Positions 4,657-47,607 of a stretch of 48,241 nt of DNA are shown here, piece by piece (positions within the stretch are counted from its first letter, which is position 1; each line of letters begins with the position of its first letter). The notes beneath the pieces are model-generated. The model saw only the letters and a program-made list of their open reading frames with translations. It was not told where the DNA came from and made no database searches. Source of the stretch: Acetatifactor sp. (GTDB lineage: Bacteria; Bacillota; Clostridia; Lachnospirales; Lachnospiraceae). Location: assembly GCA_018385425.1 (NCBI GenBank), contig JAHBAA010000034.1:1-48241 (forward strand), given 5' to 3'. The position numbers and the translations under genes were made by a program.

Positions 4657-6021
4657 TTGAAGAAAGACAAGAAGTATGAGATCGATATGTGTAATGGTCC
4701 GCTGCTTCCGAAAATATTGTTGTTCTACTTTCCGCTTATGATCTCCGGTATTCTTCAATTGATGTTCAATGCCGCGGATATTGCCGTGGTTGGGAGGTTT
4801 GCGGGCAATCAGGCTTTGGCTGCAGTCGGCTCTACCAGCTCCCTGACGAACCTTCTTGTGAACCTGTTCGTCGGATTATCTGTGGGCGCCAATGTACTGG
4901 TGGCCAGATATTATGGGGCAAATCAGGAGAAAGATCTGAGAGAAACGGTTCAGACTTCGGTTCTGACGGCTCTGATCGGTGGTATTGCGCTTGTCTTCAT
5001 CGGCTTTTTTGCCGCCGAACCGGCACTTGCCATGATGGGGACACCTGAGGATGTGATCGCTCATTCCACACTGTATATGAGGATCTATTTTGCGGGGATG
5101 CCGTTTCAGATGGCATACAATTTCGGCAGCGCGATCCTGCGTGCGATAGGGGATACCAGAAGACCGCTCTATTTTCTGTCTCTGGCAGGCATCATCAATG
5201 TGATCCTGAATCTTTTGTTCGTGATCGTCTTTTCCATGGGAGTGGCAGGAGTGGCGCTGGCGACAGTTCTGTCCCAGATGATCTCTGCGGTCCTGGTCCT
5301 TCACTGCCTGCTTCGATCCAAGGGGCCTTATCGATTGGAGCTGAGAGCGATTCGCCTGTGCGGGGATAAACTGTTGAAGATCGTGAAGATCGGTCTGCCG
5401 GCAGGTCTGCAGGGCACGCTGTTTTCTCTGTCCAATGTATTGATACAGGCTTCCATCAACGGATTTGGCTCCATCGTCATGGCCGGCAATACGGCCGGAA
5501 GCAATCTGGAAGGATTCGTTTATATTGCCATGAATTCCTTCTATCAGACGGCCATCAGCTTCTGCAGTCAGCAGTATGGCGCGATGAAGATCAGGAGAGT
5601 GGGAAAAACATTAGTTCAGTGTGAAGTGCTGGTGATCCTCGTGGGACTTTTGCTGGGAAACGGAGCATATTTCTTTGGCGGTACCCTTCTAAAACTGTAT
5701 AGTACCGACCCGGAGGTGATCTCTTATGGTCTGCTCCGTATGAGATATATCTGTGTCCCCTATTTTCTGTGCGGCATGATGGATGTCATGGTGGGTGCAC
5801 TGCGTGGAATCGGTTATTCCGTCCTGCCCATGCTGGTTTCTCTGTCCGGAGCCTGTCTGTTTCGGATCGTTTGGATCTCCACAGTGTTTCAGAGAGTCCA
5901 CACCCTTCCCTGTCTGTATAATTCCTATCCCATCAGCTGGGCTTTGACTTTTGCGGTACATTTGATCTGTTTCTGTATCATCTACCGAAAACTGCTGAAA
6001 ACAATGGATAAAAATACTTGA
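4657..6021 (+). CDS. MATE family efflux transporter (TTG start)
   Basis: Polytopic; LPKILLFYFPLMISGILQLMFNAADIAVVGRFAGNQALAAVGSTSSL typical of MATE. Confidence 0.9.
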   Translation: MKKDKKYEIDMCNGPLLPKILLFYFPLMISGILQLMFNAADIAVVGRFAGNQALAAVGSTSSLTNLLVNLFVGLSVGANVLVARYYGANQEKDLRETVQTSVLTALIGGIALVFIGFFAAEPALAMMGTPEDVIAHSTLYMRIYFAGMPFQMAYNFGSAILRAIGDTRRPLYFLSLAGIINVILNLLFVIVFSMGVAGVALATVLSQMISAVLVLHCLLRSKGPYRLELRAIRLCGDKLLKIVKIGLPAGLQGTLFSLSNVLIQASINGFGSIVMAGNTAGSNLEGFVYIAMNSFYQTAISFCSQQYGAMKIRRVGKTLVQCEVLVILVGLLLGNGAYFFGGTLLKLYSTDPEVISYGLLRMRYICVPYFLCGMMDVMVGALRGIGYSVLPMLVSLSGACLFRIVWISTVFQRVHTLPCLYNSYPISWALTFAVHLICFCIIYRKLLKTMDKNT

Positions 6022-6046
6022 AACATATGTTCGATTATGCTATAAT
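6018..6046 (+). promoter_or_regulatory. ruvAB promoter TTGAAA-N17-TATAAT overlapping a LexA/SOS-like box (GAAACATATGTTCG, 6020-6033)
   Basis: -35 at 6018-6023, 17-nt spacer, -10 at 6041-6046; AACATATGTT palindrome overlaps -35/spacer. Confidence 0.75.
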
Positions 6047-6048
6047 GT

Positions 6049-6111
6049 ACGCGAGCAAAAAACCAAGCGACGCGGTCGGCGGCATTTGGTTTTTGCCGCG
6101 ATAACGAGCAG
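6049..6111 (+). repeat. 63-bp direct repeat, copy 1
   Basis: ACGCGAGCAAAAAACCAAGCGACGCGGTCGGCGGCATTTGGTTTTTGCCGCGATAACGAGCAG, identical to 6171-6233. Confidence 0.95.
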
Positions 6112-6170: not shown

Positions 6171-6233
6171 ACGCGAGCAAAAAACCAAGCGACGCGGTCG
6201 GCGGCATTTGGTTTTTGCCGCGATAACGAGCAG
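6171..6233 (+). repeat. 63-bp direct repeat, copy 2
   Basis: Identical to 6049-6111; 122-bp period. Confidence 0.95.
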
Positions 6234-47283: not shown

Positions 47284-47547
47284 TCAGGGCGGTGGAATGC
47301 CCCAGATGCCCTCTGACTGATAATAGGACAGAACAAGAGGGCGGAGAATGTCACCGTCCAGCACCTGACAGTGAAATTCAGACACATTGACAAAACAGCT
47401 CTTCACCCAATAGGAATGGATCTTGTAGGAATTGGATTCGATTCGCACATAGAGAGGCTTAATATGGCCTTCTGTGTCGAAGGAGGCTATGACGGGTACG
47501 ACCTTCATGGATTTGTAATCATAGGATGTATAGGAAACGATCGGCAT
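47284..47547 (-). CDS. 87-aa unknown protein, putative SOS-controlled gene
   Basis: MPIVSYTSYDYKSMKVVPVIASFDTEGHIKPLYVRIESNSYKIHSYW...; strong RBS AAAGGAGG before ATG 47547; ORF-track start at 47751 lies upstream of the promoter. Confidence 0.75.
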   Translation of the reverse strand: MPIVSYTSYDYKSMKVVPVIASFDTEGHIKPLYVRIESNSYKIHSYWVKSCFVNVSEFHCQVLDGDILRPLVLSYYQSEGIWGIPPP

Positions 47548-47578
47548 GGTATAACCTCCTTTCTTATCTGTTGATTCT

Positions 47579-47607
47579 ATTATACAAACATATGTTCGAA
47601 AAGTAAA
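47579..47607 (-). promoter_or_regulatory. minus-strand promoter TTTACT-N17-TATAAT with LexA/SOS-like box CGAACATATGTTTG in spacer
   Basis: Plus coordinates: -10 ATTATA 47579-47584, box 47585-47598, -35 AGTAAA 47602-47607. Confidence 0.8.

Follow-up and report, generated by a model that had tools for sequence, protein, structure and literature searches.

Translesion polymerases drive SOS mutagenesis and the evolution of antibiotic resistance, and their small subunits are poorly known apart from UmuD. HumD of phage P1 is a homologue of UmuD′ and works with UmuC. The putative UmuD analogue of Gram-positive Y-family polymerases is YolD/YqjX (PF08863), which partners YqjW/UvrX. A third group is formed by the ImuB-C proteins, beta barrels that partner error-prone polymerases. 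Standalone members are already known, some of them beside clostridial polymerases, and ImuB-C has been coupled to two clostridial YqjH subgroups (PMC6511836). YolD, an SH3 barrel, and ImuB-C are structurally dissimilar according to published work (PMC12926913). We equate the Pfam family DUF6504 (PF20114) with ImuB-C on the grounds of a match in Caulobacter, an organism with ImuB, of the sequence pattern and of the literature.

The gene described here encodes a protein of 87 amino acids that resembles the standalone ImuB-C proteins (PMC3765255, PMC6511836) in size, in an all-beta fold with seven strands of the same order and in a conserved C-terminal Trp. The likeness extends to predicted SOS control, to a neighbourhood of Y-family polymerases and to a 95% profile match, the latter two at the level of the family. 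It differs in that the Pfam model of DUF6504 does not match the protein, its clade lacks the conserved ‘AG’ loop and is mostly phage-borne, and no polymerase gene is adjacent. YolD is likewise a small, SOS-induced beta protein that goes with Y-family polymerases, but its partners are YqjW/UvrX whereas the family of the 87-aa protein is found mainly with YqjH/Pol IV-like enzymes; no Pfam match to YolD was obtained in the window protein, and YolD is absent from the families listed for the 70 members scanned. With HumD the protein would share the condition of an orphan accessory subunit, carried on a mobile element, for a Y-family polymerase of the host, although the fold is unrelated and the host group is another.

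A LexA-type operator within the promoter of the 87-aa gene

The window, by which we mean the whole analysed stretch of 48,241 nt, holds the following features.

47284..47547 (stop codon included), minus strand: 87-aa gene for a putative ImuB-C-like SOS protein; open reading frame with ribosome-binding site, homologues, AF2 model
47555..47562 (approximate position), minus strand: Shine-Dalgarno sequence AAAGGAGG; direct reading
47579..47584, minus strand: −10 element TATAAT, abutting the operator; direct reading
47585..47598, minus strand: predicted LexA-type operator CGAACATATGTTTG; sequence, and box kept in promoters of the family
47602..47607, minus strand: −35 element TTTACT, the operator lying within the 17-nt spacer; direct reading
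6020..6033, plus strand: second LexA-type box, upstream of ruvAB, with the AAACATATGTTCGA core at 6021-6034; sequence match

An earlier note on this DNA had described an 87-aa reading frame with a Shine-Dalgarno sequence, and both are present (47547..47284, minus strand), the frame being preceded by AAAGGAGGTTATACC-ATG. Since relatives show conserved sequence, this is a true gene rather than a frame open by chance. On the minus strand the promoter is TTTACT-TTTCGAACATATGTTTG-TATAAT, with the palindrome in the 17-nt spacer just as had been noted. CGAACATATGTTTG at 47585-47598 is the sole exact match to the strict pattern CGAACNNNNGTTYG in the window, and the 2.47-Mb assembly contains only three: in this promoter, in the region upstream of uvrB and within a coding sequence. 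The last of these, CGAACGATAGTTTG at G000:C125, was discarded as an operator and put down to chance because of its position inside a coding sequence. The gene is flanked by a NUDIX gene and an SCP2 gene, and neither a phage gene nor a polymerase gene adjoins it at this locus.

A recurrence of the 14-bp core at ruvAB had also been claimed, and it is exact: the window contains AAACATATGTTCGA at 6021, at 47586 and at no other position, against an expectation of 0 from shuffled sequences, and the gene downstream of position 6021 is ruvA by translation. Between this LexA box with its promoter and ruvA lies an exact 54-bp direct repeat (6055-6108 and 6177-6230) which contains the inverted repeat AAAAAACCAA...TTGGTTTTT and may be a leader or REP-like element.

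The host genome encodes both RecA and LexA (PF01726 match at G000:C88, E 9.9e-26). Boxes had been anticipated at lexA, recA and uvrB and are found at each: several in the divergent lexA/LysM-like region (CAAACATTTGTTCT, AGAACAAATGTTCC), two at recA, one of which is situated between its −35 and −10, and one exact match ahead of uvrB, while ruvAB is preceded by a further box. The strict pattern CGAACNNNNGTTYG therefore undercounts the LexA sites of this host. These boxes agree with the clostridial box GAACN4GTTY, for which binding of LexA has been demonstrated in C. difficile (PMC4234289). The SOS reading of the earlier note was thus examined at the points where it could have failed, and LexA is present, lexA and recA carry boxes and the orthologues of the gene keep theirs, as do distant homologues. 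It is strongly supported from the sequence side that the 87-aa gene is a DNA-damage-response gene, presumably repressed by LexA and induced upon damage. Elsewhere in the genome (L207, G000:C128), a DNA-repair gene of the SplB-like radical-SAM type and its divergently oriented neighbour have two LexA-type boxes between them.

A clostridial family beside Y-family polymerases

Scans of the 87-aa protein against Pfam, NCBIfam, PHROGs and PADLOC returned nothing meaningful, a PDB sequence search gave no credible match and a search of named phage records gave none, with relatives present on IMG/VR contigs. The statement that the protein belongs to no recognised family consequently holds for the curated libraries (Pfam, NCBIfam, PADLOC) and does not hold beyond them, as a large uncatalogued clostridial family exists. 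Its distribution within the genus is patchy: there are two orthologues, 48% and 33% identical and each with the box, and one of them is divergent from a Y-family polymerase gene with the box between both genes. Profile iteration recovered homologues in 19, and then in 121, of the 392 genomes of the order, and some members of the wider family are carried on plasmids. About 7 kb was fetched around 80 places, and 82 family genes were analysed.

A Y-family (translesion) polymerase gene is adjacent to 43 of the 82. Directly downstream of the polymerase are 33 family genes, 9 are upstream and 1 is divergent with a shared box, while the remainder comprises 1 with a polymerase near and 38 with none. 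Across the phylum a Y-family polymerase was found within 1.5 kb at 26 of 30 loci. These neighbours are IMS/IMS_C proteins whose nearest NCBI entry is PRK03103, ‘DNA polymerase IV’. Because the relatives mostly adjoin error-prone DNA-repair polymerases, a small polymerase helper subunit is the most likely nature of the product.

The operator is conserved along with the gene. In the region ahead of each gene or its operon, boxes were scored by how many of the 10 positions of the consensus they match; a score of at least 9/10 was reached by 50 of the 82 family genes and of at least 8/10 by 73, against 2.2% and 7.3%, respectively, of random 270-bp windows from the same loci. For the 33 polymerase-first operons two windows were scanned, by which the background is at most doubled. 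The 82 genes are related and so do not represent 82 independent box events; the family is nonetheless deeply divergent, with a mean column identity of 31% in its alignment. Many members without a polymerase have the box between −35 and −10, in the same layout as the window gene.

Some loci have arrangements of their own. Loci L095-L107 belong to a single family within the order (f17), where the gene is polymerase-less; in most of those examined it is divergent from a conserved 702-aa gene, judged by eye to be probably a type III glutamine synthetase, and has a box at about −53. At L132 (3495-3923, minus strand) a YolD-type N-terminal arm (DRASQFLPFAALKGF) is naturally fused to an ImuB-C-like domain, directly 3′ of a UmuC-type polymerase gene, so that one locus joins the YolD type to the domain of the family. 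Tandem or paralogous copies within a few kb occur at L113 and L115, in G278 and G421.

Remote likeness to ImuB-C

Comparison of the family with DUF6504 by hhalign gave a full-length alignment at 95.4% (E 2e-8, score 44.6); the best of 100 column shuffles scored 18.7 and the reversed control 10.9. An HMM derived from DUF6504 also finds family members (best E 3e-5, small set). Taken on its own, the clade of the window gene aligns with DUF6504 at 0.3% (score 10.7), no better than shuffles, and hmmscan of the 87-aa protein produced no DUF6504 match. The same clade aligns with the wider family at 98.3%, and it is only through this wider family that it may be tied, transitively, to ImuB-C. No single gene among 379 genomes gave a match at E≤0.01 to DUF6504 as well as to the profile of the family, and the case for homology between the family and ImuB-C hence rests on profile-profile comparison and fold.

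The AF2 model of the 87-aa protein is all-beta (pLDDT 87) and, like the AlphaFold model of the DUF6504 domain (pLDDT 93), has seven strands in identical order. Both models have the viral protein A0A8S5PG70 as a structural neighbour. Foldseek returned no match below E 0.2 from the PDB, and ImuB-C is likewise reported to lack a PDB fold match (PMC12926913). The C-terminal Trp (W82) is invariant in 70 alignment rows, and, as to the two conserved basic residues of ImuB-C/DUF6504, the Arg/Lys positions of the family alignment and the DUF6504 alignment are offset by two columns. Profiles and models together indicate that the family is remotely homologous to ImuB-C.

A clade of orphan and phage-borne copies

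The window gene falls in a clade of 15 members with support of 100/93, in a coarse tree from a short alignment. Eight of the members are viral or prophage-like copies, six are chromosomal orphans and one is divergent from a polymerase gene. Most viral copies have kept the operator, including L217 on a 150-kb contig, and no box of at least 8/10 was found at the viral L225 or the chromosomal L210. The phage-copy promoter GCTTTACTTTTCGAACATTTGTTTGTATAAT is almost identical to that of the window gene. In L016/L073 (G086:C10) the family gene has its own LexA box and lies directly 3′ of a phage-like pair of holin and endolysin genes, a moron-like position in a lysis cassette.

In the accessible text of the ImuB-C literature we found no account of orphan ImuB-C-like proteins that have LexA-boxed promoters of their own and form a clade associated with phages, and the orphan, mostly phage-borne branch with its operator-in-promoter layout is the new element here. 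One branch of the family travels in phages under what appears to be a damage-inducible promoter of its own, and the mutagenesis of anaerobic hosts, gut Lachnospiraceae among them, may thus be tuned by mobile elements. Tentatively, one may speculate further that phages, prophages and some plasmids of the Clostridia carry free-standing ImuB-C-like subunits, each under a LexA-controlled promoter of its own, that retool the Y-family polymerase and RecA of the host upon SOS, the window gene being a chromosomal member. If true, such retooling could raise mutagenesis, or divert or block the host complex of polymerase and RecA for the benefit of the phage.

Discussion

We consider it probable that the 87-aa gene is a LexA-repressed SOS gene and that its product is an orphan, all-beta, ImuB-C-like translesion subunit that acts in trans on a Y-family polymerase of the host. 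DNA damage would yield activated RecA (RecA*) and lead to cleavage of LexA, the operator in the −35/−10 spacer would be vacated and the 87-aa protein made. The protein would then bind the host polymerase in trans, probably together with RecA, and modulate lesion bypass and mutagenesis. A broad, uncatalogued clostridial SOS family is thereby given a concrete and testable role.

The same observations could be read from the side of the phage, with the clade as mainly phage cargo, the gene as a phage-derived SOS moron that takes over or inhibits the polymerase (or RecA) of the host for phage replication once the prophage is induced by SOS, and the window copy as a domesticated remnant. The 8 of 15 clade members from viral contigs or prophage-like loci, the box and promoter layout shared by phage copies, the patchy distribution in the genus and the copies adjoining holin and endolysin genes are all in its favour. 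However, no phage genes adjoin the window gene, which is intact and has a clean promoter, the ties of the wider family to polymerases of the chromosome are strong, and we regard this reading as unlikely.

Aravind et al. originally proposed for ImuB-C a role in recognition of DNA damage (PMC3765255). Transferred to the 87-aa protein, the beta domain would bind damaged DNA and recruit repair enzymes with no obligatory contact to a polymerase, in line with the frequency of polymerase-less orphans (38/82). The strong linkage of the family to Y-family polymerases argues against it, as does published modelling of ImuB-C that favours protein-protein contacts, with ImuA and DnaE2 (PMC12926913), and this function seems rather improbable.

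The earlier note had suggested a division inhibitor or a nuclease/repair modulator, and a toxin may be added to these unrelated SOS effectors. Small size, an SOS promoter of its own and an orphan location would suit such a protein, but it resembles no such family in the library scans and has no long hydrophobic segment, and the homologues co-occur with polymerases and show no recurrent cell-division neighbour. The evidence points instead to a family of partners of Y-family translesion polymerases, remotely homologous to ImuB-C, and an unrelated effector is very unlikely. That the operator is a chance box-like palindrome in the promoter of an unrelated gene can hardly be maintained, for although the window contains as many as 8 one-mismatch matches to the loose box pattern, against 3.9 expected, the box is kept across dozens of divergent family promoters and in phage relatives.

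A subunit acting in trans calls for a polymerase elsewhere, and the host genome encodes one of the YqjH/Pol IV type (L221:704-1951, G000:C177). No LexA box of at least 8/10 was found upstream of this gene on its 4.2-kb contig. Its C-terminus reads EQMSFF...KKLDSAIDSIRGRFGNASVQRAS, in which EQMSFF was recognised by eye as clamp-like and another segment as RecA-NT-like, features that are described for polymerases pairing with ImuB-C and RecA. The polymerase gene lies 3′ of, and in the same orientation as, a gene for a TetR-type regulator, and the contig carries another Y-family gene close to it.
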